Positions 388 to 21,931 of a DNA stretch of 64,000 bases are shown here, piece by piece. A program made the position numbers and the translations under genes. The stretch comes from Zavarzinia marina (GTDB taxonomy: Bacteria > Pseudomonadota > Alphaproteobacteria > Zavarziniales > Zavarziniaceae): positions 1 to 64,000 of the forward strand of contig NZ_JAKGSB010000005.1 in the NCBI RefSeq assembly GCF_021568905.1, given 5' to 3'. Every line of letters begins with the position of its first letter. Position 1 is the first letter of the stretch. The notes under the pieces were generated by a model. That model was not told the origin of the DNA and made no database searches. It saw only the letters and a program-made list of their open reading frames with translations.

Positions 388-1164
388 TCAGCGTTCGACG
401 AAGGCCCGCTCGTAGACGTAATCGCCGGCTTCGCCCACATGAGGCGAGACGGTGAAACCTTTCGCGTCCAGCATGGCACGCAGATCCTCGAGCATGGCGG
501 GGCTGCCGCAGATCATGACCCGATCGGTTTCGGGGTTCAGTTGCGGCAGGCCGATATCGGCGGCCAGCTTGCCCGTCTCGATCACCTCGGTGATGCGGGC
601 CCGGTTGGGGTGCGGTTCCCGCGTGACGAGGGGGTAGTAGATCAGCTTTTGCCGCGCCCATACGCCGAAGATCTCGTCCGCCGGCAGGTCGCGGGTGAAA
701 TAGTCGGCATAGGCCAGTTCGCTGGCGTAACGCACCCCGTGCATGAGCACGATCCGCTCGAAGCGCTCGTACATTTCGGGATCCTTCACCAGGGACATGA
801 AGGGGGCGAGCCCGGTGCCCGTGCCCATGAGGTAGAGATGTCGGCCGGGCCGCAAGTCCGAGAGCAGCAGGGTACCGGTCGGCTTCTTGCCGACGATCAC
901 CTCCGAGCCCGGCTCGAGATGCTGAAGGCGCGAGGTCAGGCGCCCGTCCTGGACCTTGATGCTGAAGAATTCCAGATGATCCTCGTGGTTGGCGCTGGCG
1001 ATCGAATAGGCGCGCAACAGGGGCTTGCCGTCGACCGGCAGGCCGATCATCACGAATTGACCGTTCTCGAAGCGCAGCCCCGCGCTGCGCGTGGTGCGGA
1101 AGCTGAACAGCGTGTCGTTCCAGTGACGGACGTCGATGACGCGTTCTGTGCCGAGGTTCGACAT
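388..1164 (-). CDS. fpr: ferredoxin-NADP reductase
   Basis: A 258-residue Fpr-type flavoprotein that moves electrons between NADPH and ferredoxin or flavodoxin. The FAD-binding motif R-A-Y-S-I-A-S is at residues 51-57 and the NADP-binding glycine-rich G-T-G-T-G-L-A-P at about 114-121. The C-terminus V-Y-E-R-A-F-V-E-R is typical of bacterial Fpr. The chosen start gives the usual length; a longer in-frame extension upstream overlaps the preceding gene and is unlikely. It ends the TetR-SDR-fpr transcription unit, 10 bp after the SDR. In this context it is a natural electron donor for the ferredoxin domain of the CYP51 fusion at 11572-13233, and perhaps for the di-iron hydroxylase at 6260; that pairing is inference. 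Confidence 0.9.
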   Translation of the reverse strand: MSNLGTERVIDVRHWNDTLFSFRTTRSAGLRFENGQFVMIGLPVDGKPLLRAYSIASANHEDHLEFFSIKVQDGRLTSRLQHLEPGSEVIVGKKPTGTLLLSDLRPGRHLYLMGTGTGLAPFMSLVKDPEMYERFERIVLMHGVRYASELAYADYFTRDLPADEIFGVWARQKLIYYPLVTREPHPNRARITEVIETGKLAADIGLPQLNPETDRVMICGSPAMLEDLRAMLDAKGFTVSPHVGEAGDYVYERAFVER

Positions 1165-1174
1165 GGCGGTACCC

Positions 1175-1948
1175 TCAGAGACCGAAACCGCCGGAGACGT
1201 TGATCGTCTGTCCGGTGACATAGGCGGCGCGGTCCGACGCCAGGAAGACGGCGGCATGGCCGATCTCCTCGGGCCGGCCAAGGCGCTTGATCGACAGCAT
1301 CTTCAAGGTCTCCTTGATCCAATGGTCGTCGAAGACGCCGCGCGCCTTCAGCTCGAGGAACATGCCGGCCTCGATGACGCCGATCAGGACCGAATTGGCA
1401 CGTATGCCGTTACGCCCCTCCTCCCGCGCGATGCCCTTGATCAGGGCTTCGTTCGCCGCCTTGGGGGCGACCGACAGGCCGTCCTTGATCGGCCAGCGCA
1501 TATGCCCGGCGGAACCGAGATGGACGAAGGAGCCGCCGCCCGCCGCGCGCATGTGGGGCACCACGGCCGAGACCACGTTGAAGAAGCCGAAGGTCTCGGT
1601 CTCGATCGAGCGGCGCCACAGATCCGGCGTCACATCGGCGATCGGCATCTGCTCCACCACCGGCCCGGCGGCGAAAACCACCGTGTGGATACGGCCGTGT
1701 TCCGCCGCCACGCCGGCCACCATGGCCCCGACGGAGTCCGCGTCCGTCAGATCGACCGCATGGCTGCTGCCCTTCCGGCCCATCGCATCCGCCTCGGCCG
1801 CGACCTCGGCCGCGACCTCGGCCTTGCGGCGATAGGTGACCGCGATGTCGCAGCCCGCTTCGGCGAAGCATTTCGCCACCGCCCGGCCAATGCCGCCGCT
1901 GCCGCCGACGATCAGCGCCACACCTTCGGGAAAATGCCCGTCCCCCAT
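1175..1948 (-). CDS. short-chain dehydrogenase/reductase, atypical active site
   Basis: A 257-residue SDR with the nucleotide-binding motif G-G-S-G-G-I-G at residues 15-21 and a C-terminal V-T-G-Q-T-I-N-V-S-G-G typical of classical SDRs. The catalytic YxxxK motif is altered. The segment reads L-S-V-A-P-K-A-A-N, so the Lys is kept but the Tyr position appears to be Ser. The upstream Ser (L-G-S-A-G) is present. The start at 1948 was chosen because the Rossmann strand begins about 10 residues later; a start 16 codons upstream would overlap the regulator gene. It lies between a TetR gene and fpr, next to sterol-type enzymes, so a keto-sterol reductase role is possible. The missing Tyr makes the reaction uncertain. 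Confidence 0.8.
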   Translation of the reverse strand: MGDGHFPEGVALIVGGSGGIGRAVAKCFAEAGCDIAVTYRRKAEVAAEVAAEADAMGRKGSSHAVDLTDADSVGAMVAGVAAEHGRIHTVVFAAGPVVEQMPIADVTPDLWRRSIETETFGFFNVVSAVVPHMRAAGGGSFVHLGSAGHMRWPIKDGLSVAPKAANEALIKGIAREEGRNGIRANSVLIGVIEAGMFLELKARGVFDDHWIKETLKMLSIKRLGRPEEIGHAAVFLASDRAAYVTGQTINVSGGFGL

Positions 1949-1992
1949 GAACCCCTCGTCTCCTCGAACCCGTCTTTCGTTGTCCGCCCGGC

Positions 1993-2796
1993 TCAATTGC
2001 CGTCCAGGCTTTCGATTTCAGCCCGCACCGCCGGCCGAAGATCGGTCCCGTCGTCGGTCAGCATGGCGACGGCGACGGCGGGGCGGCAGAACTGACGGAC
2101 GAAATCCGCCATCACCCGGTCGATCACCGATCGATGATCCTCCACCATGCCGCCGGCGACCCAATTGGCCAGCCGCGTCTGTTGCAGCGCCAGCACCATG
2201 CGCGCCTGATCGGCGCCCTCGCCCGCCACCAAGAGGCCTTCGCGCACCCCCCAGCCAAGCACGTTCTCGATGGCGACGACGCCCTGCTCCCAGAGGCGCT
2301 GCTCCTCGGTCGTCGGCTGGGCGGCGGCGTGATACCAGGCGTAGCCTTCCTGCAGGATGAGGCGCAGGTAGTCCGGCCGTTCCAGCAGGAAGCCGAGATG
2401 AGCCTTCATCACCCAAAGCATCTGCGGCAGCGACTGGGGCCGGGCCAGCGCCGCCTGCACCTTGGACAGCACCGCCGCCACCATCTGCTGATGCCGGGCG
2501 ATCAGGACGGCGCGATGCAGTTCCTTCTTGCCCGGATGAAACTGGTAGAGCGTCGCCAGCGAGATTCCGGCCTCCCGCGCCACATCCTGCATGCGGGCAT
2601 TGGCGAAGCCGTGATCGGCGAAGACCCGTTCCGCCACTTCCATGATGTGCTCGCGCGACAGCGCATCCTTCGCGGCACGCAGCGCGGCCGCCGCCTGATT
2701 GCGCGGACGCGCCGCCGCGCGCAGGACCGGCGTCTCGTCCGCCCCGTCTTCGATCCGGATGCTGTCGTCGATCTGGGTCTTGGCTTCGGCACTCAT
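1993..2796 (-). CDS. TetR/AcrR family transcriptional regulator
   Basis: A 267-residue TetR-family protein. After about 45 polar residues comes the DNA-binding domain: a helix rich in A-E-R-V-F-A-D-H-G-F, then the helix-turn-helix at about 68-94 with D-V-A-R-E-A-G-I-S and T-L-Y-Q-F. The remainder is the all-helical ligand and dimer domain. The gene is divergent from the GMC-ALDH-sterol oxidase operon across 201 bp that hold a clear palindrome. This is the usual arrangement for a local repressor, so it is the best candidate controller of the sterol cluster. Ligand unknown. Confidence 0.88.
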   Translation of the reverse strand: MSAEAKTQIDDSIRIEDGADETPVLRAAARPRNQAAAALRAAKDALSREHIMEVAERVFADHGFANARMQDVAREAGISLATLYQFHPGKKELHRAVLIARHQQMVAAVLSKVQAALARPQSLPQMLWVMKAHLGFLLERPDYLRLILQEGYAWYHAAAQPTTEEQRLWEQGVVAIENVLGWGVREGLLVAGEGADQARMVLALQQTRLANWVAGGMVEDHRSVIDRVMADFVRQFCRPAVAVAMLTDDGTDLRPAVRAEIESLDGN

Positions 2797-2997: not shown

Positions 2998-4653
2998 ATG
3001 GAGAGCGAAGGCTTCGACTATGTCATCGTCGGGGGCGGTTCCGCCGGCTGCGTCGCGGCGGCGCGCCTGGCGGCGGCCGGCTCCGTCCTGCTGCTGGAGG
3101 CCGGCGATCCGGCGACCGCGCATCCCGAGAGCCTGTCGTCCGACGGCTTCAAATATGCCTTCGCCAATGACGCCCTGATGTGGCACCGCATGTCCGCGCC
3201 CCAGGCCCATTGCGGCGGGCGTTCCGTCTTCATCGGCACCGGGCGCGGCATGGGCGGCAGCGGCTCTGTCAACGGCATGGTCTATACCAGGGGCGACCGG
3301 CGCGATTTCGACGCCTGGCCGAAGGACTGGCAATGGGACGACGTGGTGCCCGCCTTCGAGGCCGTCGAAGCCCGCCTGGGCATAAGCCCGCGTCCGCCCA
3401 CCCCTTTCGCCGAAGCCTTTCTCTCCGCTGCGACCGACGCGGGGTTCGAGCGGCGCGATCACATGAACGACGGCGACCTGGGCGGTGTGGTCGGCTGCAA
3501 CGACATGAATTACGCCGGTGATCAGCGCCGCAGTTCCTATCGCGCCTTCCTGCACGACGCCCCCGTCCCCGGCCTGACGATCCGGACCGGCGCCACGGCA
3601 CGCCGTATCGTCTTCGTCGGTTCCCGCGCGATCGCCGTCGAATATGAGTCCGGCGGCAAGGTCACCACGGTCGCCGTGGGTCGCGAACTCGTGCTGGCGG
3701 CGGGCGCCCTGGTGACGCCTCATCTGCTGATGATTTCCGGCGTCGGTCCCAGGGCTGAACTCCAGGCCGCCGGCGTACCCTTGGTCCTCGATGCGCCGGG
3801 GGTCGGGCGTAACCTGCAGGACCATCCGAACGTCTGCATCTTCTATCGCGCCGATGCGCCGGTCGACTTCCAATATCCGCAAGTCTACGGCTTCGACGCC
3901 GCCCGCGCGCCCGAAGGCGGCCAGCGGGGTGAGACGCCGGACACCTGCTATGTCTGCTATGCGGCACCCGCCTCGCTGCAACAGTCGATGCAGCGCATGG
4001 TGCCGGTGCTGGCCCTGCCCGGCCGGCTCTATCATGCGCGGACATTACGGCGCCTGTTGCGGGGCATGGTGAACCTGGCCTTCCGCCTGCCGCCGCTGCG
4101 CCGCTTCGTCGGCTCGATCTTCGGCATCGTCGTCATCCTGGGCAAGCCGACGGCACGGGGCGCGATCCATCTCGCCTCCGCCGATCCCGCCGTGCCGCCC
4201 AGGATAGACCCCGCCTATTACGCGACCGAGGAAGACCGCGCCGTCATGCGCGCCGGGATCGGGCGCGCACACGCCATCGCCGCCAAGCCGGGCCTTCGCC
4301 GCGCCGGCGCCCGCCCCCTGTCCGCCGGCGCCAAACCCGTTTCGGAAAAGGCGCTTTGGAAATGGGTCCATGGCGCAACCATGACGACCTTCCATTTCTG
4401 TGGTTCGTGCCGCATGGGCGACGAGGCCGAAAGCCCGCTCGACACGCGGCTTCGGGTCAAGGGCCTCGCCAATGTCCGCGTCGCCGATGCCTCGGCCGTG
4501 CCGGAAATCCCGGTCTCCGCCCTCAATGCGCCCAGCATGATGATCGCCTGGCGTGCCGCCGATTTCATCCTGGCCGAGCAGGATGCGACCGCCACCGCCG
4601 ATGTCCCTTCCTTCGAACAACCCCGCCGCATTCACGCAGGAGAACCGGCATGA
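2998..4653 (+). CDS. GMC family FAD-dependent alcohol oxidoreductase
   Basis: A 551-residue glucose-methanol-choline oxidoreductase. The N-terminal FAD motif V-G-G-G-S-A-G is at residues 11-17. The second GMC signature region covers R-G-M-G-G-S-G-S-V-N-G-M at about 80-95. The C-terminal catalytic region has T-F-H-F-C-G-S-C-R-M-G with the active-site His near residue 465, followed by N-A-P-S-M-M-I-A-W. It has no signal peptide, so it should be cytosolic. It opens a five-gene operon and overlaps the aldehyde dehydrogenase start by ATGA. Beside C4-sterol-type enzymes, it could oxidise a hydroxymethyl or 3-hydroxyl group. Substrate is inferred from context only. Confidence 0.88.
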   Translation: MESEGFDYVIVGGGSAGCVAAARLAAAGSVLLLEAGDPATAHPESLSSDGFKYAFANDALMWHRMSAPQAHCGGRSVFIGTGRGMGGSGSVNGMVYTRGDRRDFDAWPKDWQWDDVVPAFEAVEARLGISPRPPTPFAEAFLSAATDAGFERRDHMNDGDLGGVVGCNDMNYAGDQRRSSYRAFLHDAPVPGLTIRTGATARRIVFVGSRAIAVEYESGGKVTTVAVGRELVLAAGALVTPHLLMISGVGPRAELQAAGVPLVLDAPGVGRNLQDHPNVCIFYRADAPVDFQYPQVYGFDAARAPEGGQRGETPDTCYVCYAAPASLQQSMQRMVPVLALPGRLYHARTLRRLLRGMVNLAFRLPPLRRFVGSIFGIVVILGKPTARGAIHLASADPAVPPRIDPAYYATEEDRAVMRAGIGRAHAIAAKPGLRRAGARPLSAGAKPVSEKALWKWVHGATMTTFHFCGSCRMGDEAESPLDTRLRVKGLANVRVADASAVPEIPVSALNAPSMMIAWRAADFILAEQDATATADVPSFEQPRRIHAGEPA

Positions 4654-6236
4654 GCATCGTCACCATTGCCGAGGCCAAGGCCAACACGGGCCCGCGCTCC
4701 TCCGCCAGCGTGATCCATTGCATCAATCCGGCGACCGGCGAGTCCCTGGGTGAAGTCCCCGTCGCCTCGCCGGACGACGTGCGCGCGGCGGTGGAACGCG
4801 CCCGTGTCGCCCAGGCCGCCTGGGGCAAGACGGATTTCGCCACCCGCCGCGCCGTCCTGCGCCATCTGCTGGACGTCGTCGTCGAGAAGATGGACGACAT
4901 CTGCGAGGCGGTGGTGGAGGACAGCGGCAAGACCTTCGAGAATGCCCTCCTGGGCGAGGTCATGCCGGTCTGCAACAAGATCCGCTGGGTCATGAAGAAC
5001 GGCGAGAAGCATCTGAGGCCGGAACACGTGCCCTCCGGCATGCTGATGCACAAGAAGGGGCGGATCGAATATCCGCCGCTGGGTGTCGTCGCCTGCATCG
5101 TGCCCTGGAACTATCCGTTCCAGAACATCTTCGGTTCCTTCGTCGCCCCCCTGATGGCGGGCAATGCGGTGGTCATCAAGGCCTCCGAAGCGGTCGCCTG
5201 GTCGACGGTCTTCTTCCAGAAGGTGATCGACGAGGCCCTGCGCCGGGCCGGCCAGCCGACCGACCTCGTGCAGATCATCAACGGCTTCGGCGAGACCGGC
5301 GCCGCCCTGGTGCGCGCGCGGGTACAGAAGATCCTGTTCATCGGCTCCGTCGGCAACGGAAGGCGCATCATCGAGGGCAGCGCCGAGCACCTGACCCCCG
5401 TGGTGATGGAACTGGGCGGCAAGGACCCGATGATCGTCTGCGACGATGCCGACCTGATGCATGCCGTCCATTCGGCGCTGGGCGGCTGTTTCATCAACCT
5501 CGGGCAGAATTGCATCGCCTCCGAGCGGATCCTGGTGATGGACGGCATCTACGACCGTTTCGTCCAGGAATTCGCCGGGCGCGCCGGGGCCATGCGCCAG
5601 GGCGTGCCCACGGCACCGGGCACCATGGACGTCGGTGCCATCAACACCCGCCAGCAGATGAAGGTGATCGACGATCTGGTGACCGATGCCATCGCATCCG
5701 GCGCCAGGGTGCTGACCGGCGGCCGCATCCCCGACGGGCCGGGGCAATTCTATCCCCCCACCGTGCTGGTCGACGTGACGCCCGAGATGCGCATCGCACG
5801 CGAGGAAGTCTTCGGCCCGGTCGCCCTGATCATGCGGGTGAAGGACGACGCCGAGGCGATCCGCATCGCCAATGGCACCGATTTCGGCCTGCATTCCTCG
5901 GTCTTCACCAGGGACGGGGCGCGGGGCGAGCGGATCGCCGCCGCGCTGGATGCCGGCGCGACCTGCATCAACGACTTCGGCCTCTGCTACCTCAATCAGG
6001 ACCTGCCCTTCGGCGGCGTGAAATATTCCGGCTTCGGGCGCATGAACGGGCGCGACGGGTTGCGCGCCTACACCGACCCCAAGGCGGTGCTGAGCGACCG
6101 CCTGCCCTTCGCCATTCCGCCCAAACTCTATCCCGTGGGGCCCAGGGATTACGCCAGGGCGCGCCACACTATCCGTCTCATGTTCGCACGGGGCCTGGGC
6201 GCCAGGATCGGCGCCCTCTTCGGCCTGATGCGCTGA
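4650..6236 (+). CDS. NAD(P)-dependent aldehyde dehydrogenase
   Basis: A 528-residue aldehyde dehydrogenase. The cofactor loop V-P-W-N-Y-P is near residue 153, the general-base Glu lies in V-M-E-L-G-G-K-D at about 254, and the nucleophilic Cys in G-Q-N-C-I-A-S at about 288. The C-terminus carries a basic, hydrophobic extension after the canonical fold, reminiscent of membrane-anchored fatty or medium-chain aldehyde dehydrogenases. The ATG overlaps the stop of the GMC gene (ATGA), so the two are translationally coupled. A GMC-ALDH pair converts an alcohol to an acid. Next to a C4-methyl-oxidase-like gene it could finish oxidation of a sterol methyl group, but a general lipid aldehyde role is not excluded. 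Confidence 0.9.
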   Translation: MSIVTIAEAKANTGPRSSASVIHCINPATGESLGEVPVASPDDVRAAVERARVAQAAWGKTDFATRRAVLRHLLDVVVEKMDDICEAVVEDSGKTFENALLGEVMPVCNKIRWVMKNGEKHLRPEHVPSGMLMHKKGRIEYPPLGVVACIVPWNYPFQNIFGSFVAPLMAGNAVVIKASEAVAWSTVFFQKVIDEALRRAGQPTDLVQIINGFGETGAALVRARVQKILFIGSVGNGRRIIEGSAEHLTPVVMELGGKDPMIVCDDADLMHAVHSALGGCFINLGQNCIASERILVMDGIYDRFVQEFAGRAGAMRQGVPTAPGTMDVGAINTRQQMKVIDDLVTDAIASGARVLTGGRIPDGPGQFYPPTVLVDVTPEMRIAREEVFGPVALIMRVKDDAEAIRIANGTDFGLHSSVFTRDGARGERIAAALDAGATCINDFGLCYLNQDLPFGGVKYSGFGRMNGRDGLRAYTDPKAVLSDRLPFAIPPKLYPVGPRDYARARHTIRLMFARGLGARIGALFGLMR

Positions 6237-6259
6237 CCGGTCACCGACGAGGCATCACC

Positions 6260-6934
6260 ATGGACACCACATTCTTCATCATCTGGGGCGTGACGCTCGC
6301 CGTGAACGGCATGATCATGGCCACCTTCAACTGGATGTCGAACAACCACAGTTTCGACAAATACCGCATCCGCATCCCGAAAAGCCCGCAGATCCCGCCA
6401 TTGCGCAAATGGATCAACGTCAGCCTGAACGGGATGTTCTCCACCCTGCTGATGATCGGGTTCTTCTATTTTTTCGGGAACGCCGTGATCTACAAGGGCC
6501 TGCCCGGGCCGGCGGCTTTCATCGGTGAGACCCTGGGCGTCCTCCTCCTCTATGATTTCATGTATTACTTCCTGCATCGCTTCATGCATTGGAAGCCGGT
6601 GCTGAAATATGTCCACCGCACCCATCACCTGATCCGCTTCCCCACGGCGCCCGAGAGCATCTATCTCCACCCGGCCGAGAATTTCGCCGGCCTCGCCTTG
6701 CTCCTGCTGGCGATGTGGATCCTGGGGCCGGTTTCGGGCGCGTCGTTCCTGATCGTGTTCTTCATCTATTCGGTCATCAACGTGCTGGTGCACACCAATT
6801 TCGTGTTCCCGCACGCGGCCTTCCGGCTGTTCAACTTCTGGACCACGAAGCACGACACCCATCACTTCCGCATGAACTACAACTACGCCTCCATCTTCCC
6901 GTTCTGGGACCAGGCCTTCGGCACCGACAAGTGA
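6260..6934 (+). CDS. sterol desaturase/fatty acid hydroxylase family protein, C4-methyl oxidase-like
   Basis: A 224-residue polytopic membrane protein with the three His clusters of the membrane di-iron family: H-R-F-M-H at 106-110, H-R-T-H-H at about 119-123, and H-D-T-H-H near 198-202. The segment Y-L-H-P-A-E after the second box and N-Y-A-S-I-F-P-F-W-D after the third match the layout of ERG25/SMO sterol C4-methyl monooxygenases better than C5-desaturases. It is shorter than eukaryotic ERG25 (about 300 residues). The next gene is ERG26-like, which supports C4 demethylation. Electrons could come from the Fpr encoded nearby. Family assignment is firm; the precise sterol position is inference. 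Confidence 0.8.
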   Translation: MDTTFFIIWGVTLAVNGMIMATFNWMSNNHSFDKYRIRIPKSPQIPPLRKWINVSLNGMFSTLLMIGFFYFFGNAVIYKGLPGPAAFIGETLGVLLLYDFMYYFLHRFMHWKPVLKYVHRTHHLIRFPTAPESIYLHPAENFAGLALLLLAMWILGPVSGASFLIVFFIYSVINVLVHTNFVFPHAAFRLFNFWTTKHDTHHFRMNYNYASIFPFWDQAFGTDK

Positions 6935-6942
6935 GCGCGACA

Positions 6943-7968
6943 ATGAAGAAGAAGATTCTCATCACGGGAGGACAGGGCTTCGTCGGACGGGCCCTGGTGG
7001 ACCGCTTCGCCGATCTCGGCCACGCGGTCACCTGCGGCGACATGAACGACCGGCCGTTCCGCGACGACGTGCGTTTCATCAAGCTCGACATCCGCGACAA
7101 GGGGGCGGTCGATGCGGCGCTGGCCGGCATGGACAGCGTGATCCACAACGCGTCCCTGGTGCATACCAAGCACAACCGGGTGGAAGACGTCTGGGCCGTA
7201 AACCTGGGCGGCACCGAGAACATCCTCGACGCCTGCGCCAAACACGGCATTCCCCGCCTCGTCTACATCTCGTCGGCAAGCGCCGTCTATGAGGGCGGCG
7301 ACATCGAGAACGGTGACGAAACATTGCCCTATTCCTCGATCTCCCAGGCACCTTATGCCGACAGCAAGATCGCGGCGGAGAAGAAGGCGCTGGCCTTCAA
7401 CGGCACGGGCGGCACGCTGACCTGCGCCATCCGCCCCCATGTCATCTTCGGGGCCGGCGACAACCGCTTCATCCCGGCGATCCTGGACAAGGCCAGGGCG
7501 GGCAAGCTGAACCGCGCCGTGGGCAATCGCGACAAGCTTTCGGACTTCACCTATATCGACAATCTGGTCGATGCGGTCGTGGCGGCCGAGGACAAGCTGG
7601 TGCCCGGCAGCCCCGCCGCCGGCCAGGCCTATTTCATCACCAATGGCGAGCCGATCGCCTTCTTCGACTTCATCGAGAAACTGATCCTCGAACTCGGCTA
7701 TCCGCCGATCAAGGGCAAGGTTCCCTACTGGCTGGCTTACGGCGTCGCCGCGGCGGCGGAAGCGATCGACACCCTGAAGGGCGGCACGCTCAACGCCGAG
7801 AACGGTCTGACCCGTTTCTCGGTCCGTTACATGGTGACTCATCACTACTTCAACATCGCCAAGGCGAAGCGCGATCTGGACTGGTCGCCCAAGATCACAT
7901 TGGCGGAAGGCATCAAGCTGACCGTGAACGAATTGGTGGCGCGCCAGCCCTCGCTCCGCGTCGCCTGA
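6943..7968 (+). CDS. 3beta-hydroxysteroid dehydrogenase/sterol C4-decarboxylase family protein (ERG26-like)
   Basis: A 341-residue extended SDR. The NAD motif G-G-Q-G-F-V-G is at 9-15, and catalytic Y138 and K142 lie in Y-A-D-S-K. Family-specific stretches include N-G-D-E-T-L-P-Y, the A-I-R-P-H-V-I-F-G-A-G-D segment, D-F-T-Y-I-D-N, and G-Q-A-Y-F-I-T-N-G-E-P. This set is typical of ERG26/NSDHL and bacterial 3beta-HSD/D proteins, which oxidise the 3-hydroxyl and release the C4 carboxyl as CO2. It starts 8 bp after the C4-methyl-oxidase-like gene. The pairing mirrors the eukaryotic C4-demethylation module. Confidence 0.85.
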   Translation: MKKKILITGGQGFVGRALVDRFADLGHAVTCGDMNDRPFRDDVRFIKLDIRDKGAVDAALAGMDSVIHNASLVHTKHNRVEDVWAVNLGGTENILDACAKHGIPRLVYISSASAVYEGGDIENGDETLPYSSISQAPYADSKIAAEKKALAFNGTGGTLTCAIRPHVIFGAGDNRFIPAILDKARAGKLNRAVGNRDKLSDFTYIDNLVDAVVAAEDKLVPGSPAAGQAYFITNGEPIAFFDFIEKLILELGYPPIKGKVPYWLAYGVAAAAEAIDTLKGGTLNAENGLTRFSVRYMVTHHYFNIAKAKRDLDWSPKITLAEGIKLTVNELVARQPSLRVA

Positions 7969-7969
7969 A

Positions 7970-8953
7970 ATGACCGGCGCGGCCCTGGTCCTCGGGGCCT
8001 CCGGCTTCCTGGGCAGCCATGTCGTCCGCCATCTGGCGGGCGAGGGGCGAAGACTCCGCGCCTTCGCCCGCCAGACCAGCGACTGCCGCCTGATCGAGGG
8101 CCTGGCGGTCGAACGGGCGACCGGTGATATCAAGAACCGTGACAGTCTCGCCGCCGCCATGCAGGGCATCGACACGGTCTTTCACTGTATCGTCGATACC
8201 CGCGCCTGGCTGCGCGATGCAGCCCCCCTGATCGCCGTCAATATCGACGGCTTGCGCAATGCGCTTGAGGCCGCGCGCGACGCGGGCGTTCGGCGTTACG
8301 TCCTCACCAGTTCCTATTGCACGATCAAGCCTTGCGATGATCGCGCCTCGACCGAGGCGGATCACTTCGACGGCATCGCCCATCTGCCCGCCTATGTCCG
8401 AACCCGGATCGAGGCGGAACGCCTGTTCTTCGCCCTGACCCGGGAAATGGGCATGGAAGGTATGGCGCTTTGCATCGCCACGACCTATGGCGCCGACGAT
8501 GTCGCGCCCACGCCCCAAGGCCAATTGCTGACCGACGTGCTGTCCGGCCGCCTGCGTTTCCATTGGGACGGCGGCGCCGCCAGCCTGGGCATCGAGGACG
8601 CCGCCGCCGGCATGGTCCTGGCCGCCGACCGGGGCCGGCCGGGGGAGCGCTACATCCTGTCGGAACGCTGGATCAGCTATCGCGAGCTATTCGAGGGGAC
8701 TCTGGCCCGTGCCGGCATCCGGCGAAGACTGTGGCGTTTCCCGCCCGGCCTGATGAAAGCAGCCGCCATCGCGACCGAGGCCGTGGCCAGCCGCCTCGAC
8801 CTCGAGAACCGCTTCAACGTCGACGCCATCCGCTGTTCCAACGAATTGGGCGATTGCCTGAACGACAAGGCAAAGGGCGAGCTGGGCTGGCAACCTCGCC
8901 CGCTGGACGCGGTGCTGGATGAAACGATCGCCTATTTCAAGGCGCGTCTGTAA
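7970..8953 (+). CDS. NAD-dependent epimerase/dehydratase family protein with YxxxR
   Basis: A 327-residue extended SDR, last gene of the GMC operon, starting 1 bp after the ERG26-like gene. The nucleotide-binding G-A-S-G-F-L-G is at about 9-15 and the active-site strand has T-S-S-Y. The usual YxxxK reads Y-V-R-T-R, with Tyr at 142 and Arg at 146 in place of Lys. The C-terminus G-W-Q-P-R-P-L-D resembles other 3beta-HSD/epimerase proteins. It could be a 3-keto-sterol reductase or a second sterol dehydrogenase, but the Lys-to-Arg change leaves catalytic competence open. Confidence 0.78.
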   Translation: MTGAALVLGASGFLGSHVVRHLAGEGRRLRAFARQTSDCRLIEGLAVERATGDIKNRDSLAAAMQGIDTVFHCIVDTRAWLRDAAPLIAVNIDGLRNALEAARDAGVRRYVLTSSYCTIKPCDDRASTEADHFDGIAHLPAYVRTRIEAERLFFALTREMGMEGMALCIATTYGADDVAPTPQGQLLTDVLSGRLRFHWDGGAASLGIEDAAAGMVLAADRGRPGERYILSERWISYRELFEGTLARAGIRRRLWRFPPGLMKAAAIATEAVASRLDLENRFNVDAIRCSNELGDCLNDKAKGELGWQPRPLDAVLDETIAYFKARL

Positions 8954-9057: not shown

Positions 9058-9888
9058 CTACAGCGATCCCACCCAATGGGCGGCGAAGTCGAGCAGGAAG
9101 AAGGTCAGCATGGATGCGGACAATCCGCCGGCCACGGTCTGCATCAGGGACCAGCGCCTGTCCCGGCGCTCGTCCAGGAAATAGTAGATCGGGAAGCTGG
9201 CGATGAAATAGGTGGCATAGATCGCCGAGCCATAGGCCAGCATGATCTCCAGCTTCTCGTAATAGAAGCTCTGGGCCATCATGGGATTGGCCATGGCCTT
9301 GGTCTCCAGCCAGGCCCAGAAATAGCCGATCACGAAGACGAAGACGGGGAACAGCAGCGCCATCCCCGGCAGGCCCGTGGTGCGCAGGCGGCGCAACACG
9401 ATATTGGCCGTCGAATGATAGGTCATGAAATAGACGTGGGTGTAGAAATACATGATCAGCGGCACGGTCTGCTCGCCCCGGCCGACGATCGCGCTGTCCA
9501 GCACCGTCGTCGCGTGCGGATAGACATAGACCATGCCCAGCACGTCGAAGAAATATTCGGAACCGAAGTAGTTACCGAAGAAGCCGAAGACGAAGAGATA
9601 GACGTTCGCCTTGAACCAATAGGAATCCCACCACGGCCGATCGGTGAAGCGCCGCGCCACCAGCATGGGGATCAGCAGGGCCGGCGCCGCCGTCAGGGCG
9701 CCGTGCAGCAGCAGGGCGCCATCGCCCCAGGTCTTGTCCCAGCCGGTGAACATCATCATGGCCATGGAGGCCATCCACACCGGGGAATAGATCAGGAAGA
9801 ATTTCTCGACCCAGGCCTTGTCCGGGTTGGAGGAGAACCAGCGTGCCCCGCCGGTCCCGGCGCGCACGCCCATCGCCACGCTGGTCAT
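9058..9888 (-). CDS. cycloeucalenol cycloisomerase (CPI1) homologue
   Basis: A 276-residue polytopic membrane protein. From memory of plant CPI1 sequences, several blocks line up in order: a Pro-Asp-Lys-x-Trp start followed by F-F-L-I-Y-S-P-V-W; a Y-W-F-K-A-N then F-G-N-Y-F block ending in E-Y-F-F-D-V-L-G; T-H-V-Y-F then Y-H-S-T-A-N with L-R-R-L-R; and Y-A-T-Y-F-I-A-S-F-P-I-Y-Y ending L-D-E. Plant CPI1 opens the 9beta,19-cyclopropane ring of cycloeucalenol to give obtusifoliol, the substrate of plant CYP51. Length is close to the plant enzyme. It is the last gene of the unit led by a CYP51 fusion, which supports a sterol role. A bacterial homologue could act on a different cyclopropyl sterol. 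Confidence 0.85.
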   Translation of the reverse strand: MTSVAMGVRAGTGGARWFSSNPDKAWVEKFFLIYSPVWMASMAMMMFTGWDKTWGDGALLLHGALTAAPALLIPMLVARRFTDRPWWDSYWFKANVYLFVFGFFGNYFGSEYFFDVLGMVYVYPHATTVLDSAIVGRGEQTVPLIMYFYTHVYFMTYHSTANIVLRRLRTTGLPGMALLFPVFVFVIGYFWAWLETKAMANPMMAQSFYYEKLEIMLAYGSAIYATYFIASFPIYYFLDERRDRRWSLMQTVAGGLSASMLTFFLLDFAAHWVGSL

Positions 9889-9895
9889 GGAGCCC

Positions 9896-10534
9896 TCACT
9901 TGCCGGTCAGGGCGATCTTGGCGATCGCGAAGGTGTTGCGCATCTTCTGGAACACGGAAGGCGCCGGATGCAGGCGGCGATGGCCGGGCAGCAGCTTGCC
10001 GCGCGCCTGTTCGTGGATCTTCTGCTTCACCACGGAACTGAGCACGCCGGCGCCCGCGAGCTGGAAGAACATGTCCTTGGCATTGCCGAAGTCGAAGAAG
10101 TCGCGCTGCCACTGCCATTGCCAGTCGCCGCCGTATTCGAACCAGGAGCCGCCGATGCCGGCGATCTCGTACCAGGTGCCGTCGGGGCGCTTGTAGGGGG
10201 CGCGCTGCTTCCAGAATCCGATCACCGTGCCGCGCGTCTCGTCGATGATGATGTCGTGATAGGGATATTCCCAATCCTCGAAACCCTTCATCTGGTAACC
10301 GATGGCGATATCGGCGATCTGCTGGCGGCCTTCGGCGACGAAATCCTCGTTGGGGCCGATGTTCCAGGAATAGACCGCGTCCTCCTTGTAGAAGGGGGTC
10401 AGATGGGTCTTCCAGTCGCCCGCCTTCTCGGCGTCGATATTGCCCTGAAGCCAGCGCTGCACCATCTCTTCCAGCTCGGCGCGGGGCCAGGCCCTGTTGG
10501 GCGGCGTGATCGAAGGCGACCTCTTGTCGGACAT
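9896..10534 (-). CDS. NTF2-like (SnoaL-type) protein
   Basis: A 212-residue soluble protein. The first 150 residues have an NTF2-like pattern: an N-terminal helix with W-L-Q-G-N, then F-Y-K-E-D-A-V-Y-S-W, an aromatic-rich strand F-E-D-W-E-Y-P-Y-H, and W-Y-E-I-A-G-I-G-G-S-W-F. This fold serves ketosteroid isomerases, dehydratases and cyclases, but I see no definitive Asp/Tyr catalytic set. A basic C-terminal tail extends past the fold. It sits between an epimerase-like gene and the CPI1 homologue, with 7 bp to the latter. A role in double-bond isomerisation or ligand binding is possible and unproven. Confidence 0.65.
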   Translation of the reverse strand: MSDKRSPSITPPNRAWPRAELEEMVQRWLQGNIDAEKAGDWKTHLTPFYKEDAVYSWNIGPNEDFVAEGRQQIADIAIGYQMKGFEDWEYPYHDIIIDETRGTVIGFWKQRAPYKRPDGTWYEIAGIGGSWFEYGGDWQWQWQRDFFDFGNAKDMFFQLAGAGVLSSVVKQKIHEQARGKLLPGHRRLHPAPSVFQKMRNTFAIAKIALTGK

Positions 10535-10549: not shown

Positions 10550-11572
10550 TCAGTGGACCAGTTTTCCGGCGTATTTGGCTTCGAGATGGCCGGCCGCGAC
10601 GAGCCAGCGAATGGTATCGCCATAGGTTTCCTCGCCCGGGCGGAAGACGAGCTTCGCCCGCGAGGCGATGCGCGAGGAATCGGCGAAGGCCCAGCGGGTG
10701 ACATATTCCATGGCCTCGGCCGAGACCTGGGTCTCGAACGGTACGAGGCGGCGGAGCGCATCGACGCCGCGCCCCATCGCCCGCATCATCCATCCGGGCA
10801 TGCGCGGTCCGGCGATGCGCCGCCCGGTGATCCGCTGCAGCAGGTCCCGGAACTCCGCCCAGGTGTAATAGGTGCCGCCGACGATATAGCGCGCCGTGGT
10901 GGCGTCGTTCGGCGCCTCGTTCTCGAGGAGGAAGCGATGGGCGAGCGCCAGATCGCGCACGTCGACGCCCTGGAAGCCGCTGGAGGTCTGCGGTACCACC
11001 TTCACGAAGGACGCCATGCCGTGATTGGCCTCGGACAATTTGGGATCGTCGGGCCCGAAGATGCCGGACGGATAGGTCATCTGGATCGGCAATCCGTCGG
11101 CCTGCATGCGCCGCACGTGTTCGTCGCAGTCGCGCTTCGAGCGGGCATAGGCATTGCCGGGATTGGCCAGCGGCACGCTCTCGTCGATCCGGGAAACGCC
11201 CGGCTGGAACAGCACGGAGAGGCTGGAGACATAGACCACGCGCCCGATGCCGAGACGGCAGGCGGTGCCGAGCACGGCGTCGATGCCGGCGACATTGTTG
11301 CGATAGATCTCGTCCGCGCGCTTCGGATCGACCGAGACCAGGGCGGCGGCGTGAAGGACGGCGTCACAGCCCCTCATCGCCCCGGCCACCAGGGGCTGGT
11401 CGCGCATGTCGCCCAGGACGAGGTCGTCGACCTTGTAGCCGTGGCGGGCGAAATAGTCGGTGACCGCCGCTTTGGACCGGACCAGGAGACGCACGTCGTG
11501 GCCCGCGTCCAGAAGGGCCCGCGCGCTATGGGCGCCGACGAAGCCGGTGGCCCCGGTGACGAAGATCTTCAT
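10550..11572 (-). CDS. NAD-dependent epimerase/dehydratase (3beta-HSD-like) protein
   Basis: A 340-residue extended SDR with G-A-T-G-F-V-G at 7-13 and the catalytic pair Y142/K146 in Y-A-R-S-K. The layout V-Y-V-S-S-L-S, Y-P-S-G-I-F-G-P-D and Y-I-V-G-G follows dihydroflavonol-4-reductase and 3beta-HSD relatives. Its ATG-proximal end follows the CYP51 stop-side by a 1-bp TGATG-type overlap, so it is coupled to the P450 fusion. In a sterol cluster it is a good candidate for the 3-ketosterol reductase needed after C4 decarboxylation, since its active site is intact while two other SDRs here are altered. That choice is inference. Confidence 0.8.
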   Translation of the reverse strand: MKIFVTGATGFVGAHSARALLDAGHDVRLLVRSKAAVTDYFARHGYKVDDLVLGDMRDQPLVAGAMRGCDAVLHAAALVSVDPKRADEIYRNNVAGIDAVLGTACRLGIGRVVYVSSLSVLFQPGVSRIDESVPLANPGNAYARSKRDCDEHVRRMQADGLPIQMTYPSGIFGPDDPKLSEANHGMASFVKVVPQTSSGFQGVDVRDLALAHRFLLENEAPNDATTARYIVGGTYYTWAEFRDLLQRITGRRIAGPRMPGWMMRAMGRGVDALRRLVPFETQVSAEAMEYVTRWAFADSSRIASRAKLVFRPGEETYGDTIRWLVAAGHLEAKYAGKLVH

Positions 11573-13233
11573 CAGCCGTGCCGTTCGAGGCGCAGCGCCG
11601 CATTGGGGCAGTAGTTCACCGCCGATTGCACCGCCTGCATCTCCTCGGGCGAGACCGCCTGCCTGACGATCTTCAGCACGCCGTCGTCACCGACCTGGAA
11701 ATGGGACGGCGCCTCGCCCATGCACATGGCATGGCCCTGGCACAGCCCGCGATCGACCACGACCGTGACCGAGGGCATCTCGGCCTTGGCCATGGCGGCG
11801 TGATCGACCGGGCATTTGGCGGCCGGCGGCTCGCCCCTGCCGTAGTCGCCGACCGAGGCATCGGCCTTGCGGCGGCGATAGCGCACGCGGCACGGCTCCA
11901 CCGGCTGGACGATCATGTCCTTGTAGTTGTCGACATAATTCTCCGGCGGATCGACCAGTTCGAATTCGTAGCGGCGCAGCAGGATCGCGAAGATCGCCTT
12001 GATCTGGAACATCGCGAAGGCATTGCCCGAGCATTTGTGCTTGCCGCCACCGAAGGGCTGATAGGCCATCAGGTTGCGGTCCTCGCGCCGTTCGGGCGAG
12101 AAGCGGTCGGGATCGAAGGCGGTCGGATTGGAGAACAGGCGCGACAGGCGGTGGGTGACCGGCGGGCAGGCCCAGACCATGTCGCCCTTCTTGATCGTGT
12201 AATCCTTGAAGCGCAGATCCTCCGCCACCTGGCGCATCAGGATGATCAGCGGCGGATGCAGGCGCAGCACTTCCTTCAGCACATTTTCCAGCATCGGCAT
12301 TTCGCGGAGACTGGCGAAGGTGACCTCGCCCCTGGTGCCCAGCAGATCGTCCAGCTCCGCCCGCGTCTCGCGCAGGATGGCGGGATGTTTCAGCAGTTCC
12401 AGCAGAACCCAGGCGGCGGTGCCCGACGAGGTGTGGTGACCGGCGAAGATGGCGCCGATCAGCATGCCCGTGATCTCGTTGTCGGACAGGCGGGTGCCGT
12501 CGTCGTAGCGCATGTCGATCAGGGACTGGAACATGTCGCTCGGCTTTTCGGCCTGGGCCTCGCGCTTCTTCACGATGCCGCCGACCAGTTCCTGCAGGCG
12601 TTTGCGGGCCTTGTCGCGCTTCCTGAACTTCGGGATCGGCAGATTGGGGAAGTGATAGGCGAGGGGATGAACGCCCTGTTCCAGATCGTGATAGATATGG
12701 GCGAATTCCTCGCTCAGCTCATAGCGGAACTCGCGCCCCAGCAGGCAATGGCTGGCGGTGTTGATGGTCAGCTGCTTCATGAAGTGGACGAGGTCGATCT
12801 CGCCGGCATCGCCCCAGTCGGCGATGATGTCCTCCACCTCCTGCACGATCTTGTGGGAATGCTCGCGCATCGCATCGACCCGGAGCGACGGCATGAGCAT
12901 GCGCAACTGTTCGTTCTTGCGCTCGATCGGGGCGTCGAAGATCAGCCCTTCGCCGAAGATCGGCGTCATCAGCTTGTAGGCGGCGGACTGGTCGAGCTGT
13001 TCGTCGGAGGAGCGGTAGAACAGCTCGCTCGCCTCGTCGCCGGTCAGCAGGATGATGCGCTGGCCCATCAGGGTGAAGGAGACGATCTCCCCCCCTTCGC
13101 GGGCGATGCGCTCGACGAAGCGGAAGGGATTGCCGGCGAAAGACATCATATGGCCGAACCAGGGGATCCCCCCCTTGGCCGCCGGCGGCGTGCCGCCGCT
13201 TCCGGTCGCGCGCATGGATGCCTGCATGGTCAT
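11572..13233 (-). CDS. cyp51: CYP51 sterol 14alpha-demethylase fused to [3Fe-4S] ferredoxin
   Basis: A 553-residue fusion. Residues 1-455 are a CYP51-type P450: the family signature Y86-x5-P-x-F-G-x-G-x-x-F-D-A, the I-helix A-G-H-H-T-S-S-G-T-A at 264-273, the ExxR pair E321/R324 followed by L-H-P-P-L-I-I-L-M-R, and the haem Cys C401 in F-G-G-G-K-H-K-C. The sequence strongly recalls mycobacterial CYP51. A linker (about 456-488) joins a ferredoxin domain with C498-x2-H501-x2-C504 and C542-P, the [3Fe-4S] pattern of P450 redox partners. Methylococcus capsulatus CYP51 has the same fusion. A strong GGAGGAGG ribosome site precedes the ATG. It leads the unit ending in the CPI1 homologue. Confidence 0.93.
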   Translation of the reverse strand: MTMQASMRATGSGGTPPAAKGGIPWFGHMMSFAGNPFRFVERIAREGGEIVSFTLMGQRIILLTGDEASELFYRSSDEQLDQSAAYKLMTPIFGEGLIFDAPIERKNEQLRMLMPSLRVDAMREHSHKIVQEVEDIIADWGDAGEIDLVHFMKQLTINTASHCLLGREFRYELSEEFAHIYHDLEQGVHPLAYHFPNLPIPKFRKRDKARKRLQELVGGIVKKREAQAEKPSDMFQSLIDMRYDDGTRLSDNEITGMLIGAIFAGHHTSSGTAAWVLLELLKHPAILRETRAELDDLLGTRGEVTFASLREMPMLENVLKEVLRLHPPLIILMRQVAEDLRFKDYTIKKGDMVWACPPVTHRLSRLFSNPTAFDPDRFSPERREDRNLMAYQPFGGGKHKCSGNAFAMFQIKAIFAILLRRYEFELVDPPENYVDNYKDMIVQPVEPCRVRYRRRKADASVGDYGRGEPPAAKCPVDHAAMAKAEMPSVTVVVDRGLCQGHAMCMGEAPSHFQVGDDGVLKIVRQAVSPEEMQAVQSAVNYCPNAALRLERHG

Positions 13234-13304: not shown

Positions 13305-13443
13305 CGATGCCGAACCGGCCCCCGTCTGGGGCATGGCGGTCCTGGGGGAAGTGCATGTATGGTCCTCGATCGGACCCATTCCGGCCGCATCCCGGCCGGA
13401 CCAAGCGAGTGCGCGTTATGAGCATGACGATCGGAACCCGGCC

Positions 13444-14892
13444 ATGAGCGGCATCGAATCCGGCGACGATGCCGGGATGTTCGATCTCGCGCCGGTCTCC
13501 CTCTGGCTCGAGGATTTCAGCGCCGTGCGCCGCCTGTTCGACGACTGGCGCGCCGCCGGCGTGACCGACCTCGCCGCCCATCTGGCGGCGGATCCCGCGC
13601 GGGTCCGGGCCTGCGCCGAGCGGATCGTGGTCCTGAAGGTCAACGCCCGTACCCTGCGCCTGTTCGAGGCGGCGGATCTGGCGGAGCTGACCGCCAATCT
13701 GGGCAGGATCTTCCGCGACGACATGCTGGATCGCCACGCCGCGGAACTGACCGCGCTGTGGCAGGGCCGGACCGAATTCCTCAGCCATTCCGTCAACTAC
13801 AGCCTGTCGGGGCGGCGCATCGACATCCAGATGACCGGCCGCGTCCTGCCCGGCCACGAAGAGAGCCTGGACCGCGTCCTCATCGCCATCGAGGACGTCA
13901 CCGCGCGCGAGACGGCAAGGCGCGAGGCCGCCGCCAGCGAGAATTACGCCCGCGGCCTGTTCGAACATTCGCCCGTGTCGCTGTGGGTGGAGGATTTCAG
14001 TTCGATCAAGCGCCTGCTCGACGAGGTGCGCGAGCGCGGGATCGAGGATTTCCGCGTCTTCACCGACGTGCATCCGGAATTCGTGCAGCGCTGCATGAGC
14101 GAGATCCGCGTGCTCGACGTCAACCGCCAGACCCTCGAGATGTTCATGGCGCCCGACCGGGCGACGCTGCTGCGCCGGCTGGGTGACGTCTTCCGCGACG
14201 ACATGGAACGGACCTTTCGCGAGCAATTGATCGACCTCTGGCACGGCAAGCTGTTCCAGCAGCGCGAGGTGGTGAACTACGCCCTGAACGGCAATCCGGT
14301 GCATGTCCTGTTGCAGCTTTCGGTCCTGCCGGGTCATGAGGACGACTGGTCCCTGGTGCAGGTCGCGCTGACCGACATCACCGCGCGCAAGAAGGCCGAA
14401 GCCTATCTCGAGTATCTCGGCACCCACGACGTGCTGACCAAGCTCTACAACCGGTCCTTCTATACCGACGAATTGAACCGCATCGAGCGCAGCAAGCTGC
14501 GGCCGGTCACGGTCATCCTGGCCGATCTGAACGGGCTGAAGGTCGCCAACGACACCATGGGCCACGCGGTCGGCGACGGCCTGTTGCGTCGGGCCGGCGA
14601 AGTGCTGGGCAAGGTGGTCGAGAAACCGTCCTGCGCCGCCCGCATCGGCGGCGACGAATTCGTCCTGCTGCTGCCCGGCGTCGACGCCCATGGCGCCAAA
14701 CTGGTGATGGAGGAGGTCGAGCGCCTGACCGACCTGAACAACCAGTTCTATCCCGGCACCCGCCTGTCGCTCGCCATGGGGGTCGCCACCAGCCTGCCGG
14801 ACGAGCGGCTGGAGGACGTGGTCCGCCGCGCGGATGCCGCCATGTATGAGGCGAAGCGCGACTTCTACGGCGATCTCGCCCAGGAAGCCTGA
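13444..14892 (+). CDS. diguanylate cyclase with tandem PAS domains
   Basis: A 482-residue cytosolic protein. Two homologous sensor repeats of about 140 residues each contain P-V-S-L-W-(L/V)-E-D-F-S, V-N-x-x-(T)-L-x-(L/M)-F and F-R-D-D-M, and end in V-T-A-R or I-T-A-R; they look like PAS domains that duplicated within the gene. The C-terminal GGDEF domain has an intact G-G-D-E-F at 402-406, followed by V-L-L-L-P-G, so it should make c-di-GMP. No RxxD inhibitory site is visible five residues before it. The start was chosen at ATG 13444 because no other in-frame start lies nearby. It is divergent from cyp51. The polysaccharide operon begins just downstream. Confidence 0.88.
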   Translation: MSGIESGDDAGMFDLAPVSLWLEDFSAVRRLFDDWRAAGVTDLAAHLAADPARVRACAERIVVLKVNARTLRLFEAADLAELTANLGRIFRDDMLDRHAAELTALWQGRTEFLSHSVNYSLSGRRIDIQMTGRVLPGHEESLDRVLIAIEDVTARETARREAAASENYARGLFEHSPVSLWVEDFSSIKRLLDEVRERGIEDFRVFTDVHPEFVQRCMSEIRVLDVNRQTLEMFMAPDRATLLRRLGDVFRDDMERTFREQLIDLWHGKLFQQREVVNYALNGNPVHVLLQLSVLPGHEDDWSLVQVALTDITARKKAEAYLEYLGTHDVLTKLYNRSFYTDELNRIERSKLRPVTVILADLNGLKVANDTMGHAVGDGLLRRAGEVLGKVVEKPSCAARIGGDEFVLLLPGVDAHGAKLVMEEVERLTDLNNQFYPGTRLSLAMGVATSLPDERLEDVVRRADAAMYEAKRDFYGDLAQEA

Positions 14893-20277: not shown

Positions 20278-21093
20278 TCACGCCTCGTAGGCGGTCTTGT
20301 ACTGATCGATCAGGTGACGGGTGTCCTTCTGCCAGGGGTGGAAGCCCGGCTTCAGGTAAGCCATGTAGTGGGGCAGCGTGCGCAGGAAGACGCCGGGGCT
20401 GACGAAGCTGAAGCGCAGCATGCCCAGCACCAGGTTGCGGAAGCCGCCGTAACCCCGCGCGCGCATGAAGTGGCGCGCGTTGAAGCGGGTGTGACCGACG
20501 AAGATCCGCGTCGCGAAGGCGAGCGCGCGCATCCGCATGGCATAGCCCTTCAGGCCCTTCGGCCCGACCGCGTTCCAGACGTCGAAGGCGACCGACTTGT
20601 GTTCCGCCTCCTCGATCGCGTGCCAGCGCCAGACCCGGGCGAATTCCGCCTCCGCCCCCTCGAAGAATTCGGGGTGCTCGAGCACATGCTCGGCCAGCAT
20701 GGCGGTGAAATGCTCGAAGGCGCAGGTCACCGCCAGGCGATACTCGGGCGACTCGTCCCGGCGCAGCTTGTCGGCCTCGGCCGCGAGGCGGGCTTCGAGG
20801 GAGGCGACATTGCCGCCGAAGGCCTCGACCGCCTTGTTGTAGCGGCGATGCTCGCGCGAATGGATGCCTTCCTGCTGCTGGAAGCCGGTGATGTCGGCCT
20901 GGAGCTGCGGATCGGCGATCCGGTCGCGGAAATACACCACCGATTCGATGAAGAACGTCTCGCCGATCGGGAACAGCACGGACGCGCCATCCATGATGGC
21001 GGTGGCGACCGGATCGCCGGCGAACCAGTTGCGCTTGTCCTCGCCCGCCAGGGCGAACTTGATGTTGCGCGGAACGATTTCGTGAGCAGTCAT
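20278..21093 (-). CDS. PF10118-type metal-dependent hydrolase family protein (paralogue 1)
   Basis: A 271-residue helical protein. Conserved segments shared with its neighbour are K-R-N-W-F-A-G-D-P, H-S-R-E-H-R-R-Y-N, F-E-H-F-T-A-M-L and W-H-A-I-E-E-A-E-H-K-S-V. The repeated Glu-x-x-His spacing suggests a ferritin-like di-metal site; the family name says hydrolase but chemistry is poorly defined. It ends with F-H-P-W-Q-K-D-T-R. It is about 70% identical by eye to the next gene, so a tandem duplication is likely. It is the last gene of an SDR-led unit under a divergent TetR gene. Confidence 0.82.
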   Translation of the reverse strand: MTAHEIVPRNIKFALAGEDKRNWFAGDPVATAIMDGASVLFPIGETFFIESVVYFRDRIADPQLQADITGFQQQEGIHSREHRRYNKAVEAFGGNVASLEARLAAEADKLRRDESPEYRLAVTCAFEHFTAMLAEHVLEHPEFFEGAEAEFARVWRWHAIEEAEHKSVAFDVWNAVGPKGLKGYAMRMRALAFATRIFVGHTRFNARHFMRARGYGGFRNLVLGMLRFSFVSPGVFLRTLPHYMAYLKPGFHPWQKDTRHLIDQYKTAYEA

Positions 21094-21112: not shown

Positions 21113-21931
21113 TCAGGCCTCGTAGGCCGACTTGAATTTCTCGATCAGGTGGCGGTTGTCGTGCTGCCAGGGATGGAAGCCGGGCTTGAAATAGGCCAGA
21201 TAGGCCGGCAGCGAGCGGCGCAGCACACCCGGCTTGATCAGCGAGAAATAGAGCACGCCGAGAACCGTGGTGCGGAACCCGCCGTAACCGCGGGCGCGCA
21301 GCAGGGCGCGGGCGTTGTAGCGGCTCTGGCCGACGAAGACGGAGGTCGCCTTCATCATGGCGCGAGCACGCATCCAGTAACCCTTCAGGCCCTTGGGCCC
21401 GACGACGTTCCAGACGTCGTAGGCGACCGACTTGTGCTCGGCTTCCTCGATCGCGTGCCAGTGCCAGATGCGCGAGAATTCGGGATCGGCGCCGGCCATG
21501 AAGTCCGGATGGGCCAGCAGGTCGTCCGCCAGCATGGCGGTGAAATGCTCGAAGGCGCAGGTCAGCGCCAGCTTGTATTCCGGCGAGGCGTTGCGGCGCT
21601 CCAGTTCGTCGATCTCGGCCTGCAGACGGCCTTCCAGCTCGGCGATGTTGCCGCCGAAGGCTTCGACCGCCTTGTTGTAGCGGCGGTGCTCGCGCGAATG
21701 GATGCCTTCCTGCTGCTGGAAGCCGGTGATTTCGGCCTGGAGCTGCGGGTCGGCGATCCGGTCGCGGAAATGAACCACGGACTGGATGAAGAAGGTCTCG
21801 CCCAGCGGGAACAGGATGGAGGCGCCGTCCATGATGGCGGTCGCCACCGGATTGCCGGCGAACCAGTTGCGCTTGTCCTCGCCCGCCAGGGCGAACTTGA
21901 TGTTGCGCGGCTTGATTTCTGCCAGGCTCAT
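21113..21931 (-). CDS. PF10118-type metal-dependent hydrolase family protein (paralogue 2)
   Basis: A 272-residue paralogue of the preceding protein, 19 bp away, with all the same His/Glu motifs: H-S-R-E-H-R-R-Y-N, E-H-F-T-A-M-L and W-H-A-I-E-E-A-E-H-K-S-V. The start at 21931 matches the paralogue's N-terminus (I-K-P-R-N-I-K-F-A-L-A-G-E-D-K). The frame stays open far upstream but that part overlaps the SDR and lacks sense. The two copies differ mostly in the middle of the protein, which may reflect different substrates or a heteromer. Confidence 0.83.
   Translation of the reverse strand: MSLAEIKPRNIKFALAGEDKRNWFAGNPVATAIMDGASILFPLGETFFIQSVVHFRDRIADPQLQAEITGFQQQEGIHSREHRRYNKAVEAFGGNIAELEGRLQAEIDELERRNASPEYKLALTCAFEHFTAMLADDLLAHPDFMAGADPEFSRIWHWHAIEEAEHKSVAYDVWNVVGPKGLKGYWMRARAMMKATSVFVGQSRYNARALLRARGYGGFRTTVLGVLYFSLIKPGVLRRSLPAYLAYFKPGFHPWQHDNRHLIEKFKSAYEA

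Follow-up and report, generated by a model that had tools for sequence, protein, structure and literature searches.

We analysed a window of 64,000 nucleotides from Zavarzinia marina and found that it encodes a bacterial homologue of cycloeucalenol cycloisomerase (CPI1), a plant enzyme of sterol synthesis, among two blocks of candidate sterol-processing genes. Our preferred reading, to which we give a probability of about 0.6, is that the CPI homologue serves a catabolic gene module by which sterols from outside the cell, both 4,4,14-trimethyl and 9,19-cyclopropyl, are cut back to 3-ketosteroids.

The CPI homologue and its relation to plant CPI1

The gene is an intact open reading frame on the minus strand, with its ATG at 9888 and its stop at 9058. 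The coordinates 9058-9888 in the preliminary description of this DNA were exact; the strand was absent from it. The 276 aa product is a polytopic membrane protein within the CPI1 range of ~270-290 aa, and long helices predominate in its AF2 model (pLDDT 90.6). Homologues within the genus Zavarzinia are 74-83% identical. A single pass over 84,980 species genomes gave at least 39 loci in several phyla at 37-79% identity; its search patterns favour close relatives, so that this count is a lower bound. Because it is conserved in the genus and at these loci, we take the open reading frame to be a real gene.

The Arabidopsis CPI1 sequence used here is an approximate version and not a database copy. 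A profile built from 42 bacterial members matched this sequence over its full length at 200 bits, whereas the best of 2000 shuffles of it reached 10.7 bits against the same profile. The window protein and the approximate plant sequence are 36% identical over 257 residues, and 30 of the 39 near-invariant bacterial positions are identical in the latter, including W26, E28, K93, Y107, Y157, R166, E195, T196, D239 and E240 (window numbering). The homology to CPI1 put forward in the preliminary description is supported, by a match that is very strong in size though made to an approximate plant sequence. Sequence comparison makes a strong case that the window protein belongs to the CPI1 family, and we infer from it that the bacterial homologue may open a cyclopropane ring. 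Plant CPI1 (Arabidopsis At5g50375) is like the window protein in length and, as far as the approximate sequence shows, in full-length similarity and in its near-invariant residues, and CYP51 accompanies both. However, the plant enzyme serves sterol synthesis, whereas the window host, judged by its genes, produces no sterols and has the core enzymes of steroid degradation.

No model in Pfam or NCBIfam matched the CPI reading frame, a search of solved structures by sequence gave no match, and Foldseek comparison of the model with solved structures gave none at E<=0.001. An Insig-2 chain was considered as a fold relative and rejected, since its best VIA-align Z of 6.1 over 112 residues is in the range of unrelated helical proteins. 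Searches of viral contigs and plasmids found no CPI relative, so that nothing points to carriage by a phage or a plasmid; the approximate Arabidopsis CPI1 sequence likewise had no match among viral contigs.

Two blocks of candidate sterol genes

The genes at issue are the following.

388-1242, minus strand: ferredoxin-NADP reductase (NCBIfam ferredoxin--NADP reductase, 152 bits, below cut-off)
1175-1996, minus strand: SDR adjoining the TetR regulator (Pfam adh_short_C2)
1993-2796, minus strand: regulator of the TetR family, transcribed divergently from the GMC operon (Pfam TetR_N)
2998-4653, plus strand: GMC oxidoreductase, candidate 4-hydroxymethyl or 3beta-hydroxy oxidase (Pfam GMC_oxred_N/C; conserved partner)
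4650-6236, plus strand: aldehyde dehydrogenase (ALDH), candidate for the 4-formyl to 4-carboxy step (Pfam Aldedh, E 3e-134; conserved partner)
6260-6934, plus strand: di-iron enzyme of the FA-hydroxylase superfamily, candidate C-4 sterol methyl oxidase (Pfam FA_hydroxylase, E 3e-23; motifs HX3H, HX2HH and HX2HH; conserved partner)
6943-7968, plus strand: SDR of the 3beta-hydroxysteroid dehydrogenase (3beta-HSD) family, candidate ERG26-like C-4 decarboxylase (Pfam 3Beta_HSD, E 6e-56; conserved partner)
7970-8953, plus strand: HpnA/SdmB-like SDR, a partner of lesser conservation (Pfam/NCBIfam)
9058-9888, minus strand: homologue of CPI1-family cyclopropyl-sterol isomerases, polytopic membrane protein (sequence family and AF2 model)
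9896-10534, minus strand: candidate 8,14-Bsr-type sterol reductase, 212 aa, NTF2 fold (six pocket residues and fold)
10550-11572, minus strand: HpnA/SdmB/3beta-HSD-like SDR, candidate sterol 3-oxidoreductase/4-decarboxylase (Pfam Epimerase and 3Beta_HSD; NCBIfam HpnA 156 bits and SdmB 110 bits, both below cut-off)
11572-13233, minus strand: CYP51 sterol 14alpha-demethylase fused to ferredoxin (P450 and Fer4, Fer4_15)

The CPI gene closes a four-gene operon on one strand, in the order CYP51-ferredoxin fusion, SDR, NTF2-fold protein and CPI. The first two genes overlap by 1 base, 15 bases separate the SDR from the NTF2 gene, and 7 bases separate the latter from CPI. This tight same-strand spacing supports the proposed co-transcription of CPI with CYP51, though the CYP51 gene is three genes upstream and non-adjacent. 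Directly upstream of and divergent from this operon, a signalling protein with PAS-type and GGDEF domains was read by eye from the translation at ~13400-14892 (plus strand).

The CYP51-ferredoxin fusion matched that of M. capsulatus (6mcw) with an E of 3e-195 over 13-549, and the two have the BC-loop, the I-helix AGHHTSS and the haem-binding FGGG-HKCSG in common. According to Lee, Giner and Welander, 8,14-Bsr belongs to the NTF2 superfamily and makes an 8(14)-sterol from the product of CYP51; in M. capsulatus its pocket is lined by Y37, Y43, Y78, Y80, D133 and D136 (PMC13277303). We found all six in the window NTF2 protein at an offset of +12 (Y49, Y55, Y90, Y92, D145 and D148), the sole fit among 100 offsets tried, and they are kept in all operon homologues. 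Membership was judged by these published residue numbers. The AF2 model (pLDDT 89.5) had 346 PDB matches at E<=0.001, to NTF2/SnoaL/KSI folds. When 398 genomes sampled from the phylum were searched for Bsr homologues, only the window host's own copy was found. The pocket residues and fold make this protein a candidate 8,14-Bsr, with putative reductase/isomerase activity on the 8,14-diene. The same CYP51 fusion, pocket residues and co-localisation characterise the CYP51-ferredoxin/8,14-Bsr pair of Methylococcus, Mycobacteriales and uncultured myxobacteria (PMC13277303). The text of that paper on the pair mentions neither a CPI homologue nor a GMC/ALDH/FA-hydroxylase/3beta-HSD block, and Methylococcus, unlike the window host, produces its own lanosterol.

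Linkage was counted over 18 loci (L008-L025) comprising the window clade and its nearest relatives, two of which (L021 and L022) are short contigs. A CYP51-ferredoxin gene was in the same locus as CPI in 15/18, and so was a Bsr candidate (15/18); L012 and L014 have the operon without Bsr. The GMC-ALDH-FA-hydroxylase-3beta-HSD block was present in 7/18, and the GMC gene of L017 is cut by the contig end. In the window this block (2998-7968) runs towards the CPI operon. In two Gammaproteobacteria (L008 and L019) eight genes form a single same-strand run, in the order GMC, ALDH, FA-hydroxylase, HSD, CYP51-ferredoxin, SDR, Bsr and CPI. The gene set is kept across Zavarzinia, Nevskiales, Spongiibacter, HdN1 and other gammaproteobacteria. 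Linkage of both blocks across classes points to a common pathway and is otherwise hard to explain. By their families, the pieces match removal of the 14-methyl (CYP51 and Bsr) and of the C-4 methyls, the latter by a putative hydroxylase, alcohol and aldehyde oxidation, and a decarboxylating 3beta-HSD. The known bacterial C-4 demethylation system, SdmAB(C) (PMC10202945), has an SdmB-like SDR, as does the window. However, the window cassette is without the Rieske SdmA, and oxidation there apparently proceeds through a eukaryote-like di-iron hydroxylase with GMC and ALDH enzymes.

In the intergenic stretch that separates the TetR gene from the GMC operon (2797-2997) lies the palindrome GTAATTGAAATTAC, which may serve as an operator. 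The CYP51 operon is not preceded by a copy of it, and an operator common to both operons was dropped as a candidate when only a weak 14-base match appeared. The ferredoxin-NADP reductase at 388-1242 is a possible electron donor to the CYP51 ferredoxin.

Synthesis or degradation of sterols

The Zavarzinia host genome (3.95 Mb) is scored as 100% complete. Using one search method, we found no match in it to a squalene/oxidosqualene cyclase or to squalene epoxidase, which suggests that the host does not synthesise sterols. A cyclase was likewise not found in four other Zavarzinia genomes or in most CPI-bearing gammaproteobacteria. In contrast, both core enzymes of 9,10-seco steroid degradation are present in the host at high similarity, KshA (E 3e-140 to 4qdc) and KstD (E 7e-186 to 7p18), with their genes within ~4 kb of each other. 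The plant-like biosynthetic role that the preliminary description implied is thus not borne out. KshA_C scored over cut-off in 42/42 CPI-bearing genomes but in only 14/299 background genomes sampled from the phylum (Fisher 1e-42, with genomes counted as independent despite their kinship). A second KshA-like Rieske oxygenase, found at the end of a contig (L051, 5820-10468; G000:C1), has a thiolase and SDRs as neighbours and perhaps belongs to a side-chain or ring degradation cluster.

A cyclase scored over cut-off in nine of the 42 CPI genomes; four of these have the hopene-cyclase motif and five are oxidosqualene cyclases (OSCs), leaving 37/42 without an OSC. The five OSC-positive genomes, L015 and L021 among them, come under the labels Myxococcota, Deltaproteobacteria or unclassified, and it is in these five that KshA_C scores lowest (E 1e-17 to 1e-26); the match there may be another Rieske enzyme. 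Valine at OSC position 453 is a mark of lanosterol synthesis (PMC4919349). We found that every OSC with a readable motif in the CPI genomes is V453, and none is of the cycloartenol type (I453). Since no CPI genome examined shows a cycloartenol-type cyclase, a cyclopropyl substrate, if any, would come from outside. In one Myxococcota genome (G1003:C237, L113) the CPI gene is ~12 kb from a V453 OSC gene on the same contig, and other Myxococcota genomes also have both.

We infer the substrate, the reaction and the order of every step of the module. The cell would take up 9beta,19-cyclopropyl sterols of plants, algae or protists, such as cycloartenol or 24-methylenecycloartanol. By protonation at C-19 the CPI homologue would open the cyclopropane and so yield a delta-8 sterol, which is what CYP51 requires. 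The CYP51-ferredoxin fusion would then remove the 14alpha-methyl, and 8,14-Bsr would convert the delta-8,14 product to a delta-8(14) sterol by reduction-isomerisation. Loss of the C-4 methyls would fall to the di-iron hydroxylase together with the GMC oxidase, the aldehyde dehydrogenase and the 3beta-HSD, and the resulting 3-ketone would pass into the KstD/KshA 9,10-seco ring-cleavage pathway. Plant CPI1 is said to act poorly on 4,4-dimethyl cyclopropyl sterols (PMC12667688), so C-4 demethylation may come before or after ring opening. A 3-ketone end product suits catabolism. Known 9,10-seco pathways start with cholesterol-type sterols, which have neither the 4,4,14-methyls nor the 9,19 ring, and the module would be a putative front end to them. 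A Mycobacterium is reported to convert lanosterol to an 8(14)-C19 steroid (PMC13277303), and that paper's citations include a 1991 article on microbial transformation of cycloartenol.

Many Myxococcota pair the CPI family with V453 OSCs and have no evident source of cyclosterols; this counts against the catabolic reading and keeps a rival alive. The protein could instead be a sterol isomerase of other specificity that moves a double bond within the rings (from delta-8 to delta-7, or from delta-8(14) onward) in lanosterol-type sterols with no cyclopropane, acting around the CYP51 and Bsr steps. Protonation followed by deprotonation beside a cation is chemistry shared with delta-8/delta-7 isomerases, a delta-8(14) double bond must be relocated ahead of ring cleavage, and some relatives (clade B, below) adjoin other P450s; the lack of I453 among readable OSCs in CPI genomes also suits this alternative. 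However, the 30/39 near-invariant residues in common with the approximate plant CPI1 sequence argue for the plant reaction, and catabolic hosts meet cyclosterols in plant or algal matter without a cyclase of their own. On balance we think such an isomerase unlikely, while treating it as a serious competitor. We consider it improbable that the module alters or detoxifies sterols of a host or the environment, for defence or for use in membranes, with no onward flow into degradation. Mycobacteria can do without their CYP51 and Bsr, which could act on lanosterol from outside (PMC13277303), yet the constant co-occurrence of KshA and a C-4 demethylation block that ends in a 3-ketone speak against this. 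Plant-like de novo synthesis, with CPI feeding CYP51, would fit the gene company and the OSCs of some CPI-bearing Myxococcota, but is contradicted for Zavarzinia by the cyclase and epoxidase searches and the degradation core, and we regard it as very improbable.

Catabolism of exogenous sterols would matter because cycloartenol-type sterols are a large plant and algal carbon input. In the literature that we searched, we found no account of how bacteria rid such sterols of the cyclopropane and of their three additional methyls; the cassette supplies candidate enzymes for each step of this trimming. Neither a bacterial CPI nor the cassette turned up in the open-access literature, which leaves out most subscription journals, and automatic database names for some bacterial CPI members may exist. 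A catabolic module would place the CPI1 family in a second physiological context and suggests why organisms that produce no sterols carry CYP51 and 8,14-Bsr. Its enzymes have potential use in converting cycloartenol or lanosterol to steroid precursors.

Distribution of the CPI family and other features of the window

The CPI loci were found in Zavarzinia, Nevskiales (Stagnimonas, Stenotrophobium, Nevskia and Solimonas), Oceanococcus, Spongiibacter, HdN1, Halieaceae, Rhodospirillales and Myxococcota. A member was present in 40/379 Myxococcota genomes; among Alphaproteobacteria the family is rare (6/385 genomes, 2 genera). The preliminary description had regarded the reaction as typical of plants, algae and some protists, which fails as an account of the family's distribution. 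In the CPI tree the window gene belongs to a clade of 19 (support 95/97), a second clade of 18, clade B (100/100), has other gene settings, and an additional small clade comes from large genomes. The Zavarzinia sequences are nested among gammaproteobacterial ones, so the gene has moved between classes. We see an even chance that bacteria across the Alpha- and Gammaproteobacteria, with relatives in Myxococcota, have a dedicated catabolic pathway for 9,19-cyclopropyl and 4,4,14-trimethyl sterols that begins with a cyclopropane-opening CPI1-type isomerase and a eukaryote-like C-4 block, and that this "plant" isomerase family is widespread in, and maybe from, bacteria. The distribution bears on whether plants or bacteria invented the CPI1-type enzyme.

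Clade B loci (e.g. L028, 8349-10849) adjoin non-CYP51 P450s with ferredoxins, or SdmB/HpnA-like SDRs. Their CPI members, which lack the CYP51-Bsr operon, may act on another sterol. Two Polyangia-labelled contigs (L015 and L021) have a coverage of ~1 and CPI sequences nested among alpha- and gammaproteobacterial ones; these are possibly misbinned contigs or a recent transfer.

Elsewhere in the window, tandem PF10118 paralogues (predicted metal-dependent hydrolases) lie at 20278-21093 and 21113-21919, beside an SDR and a TetR regulator. Between 24000 and 36000 the window encodes the alpha subunit of urease along with an ABC transporter cluster of the branched-chain type; these are probably an ordinary system for urea uptake and use.
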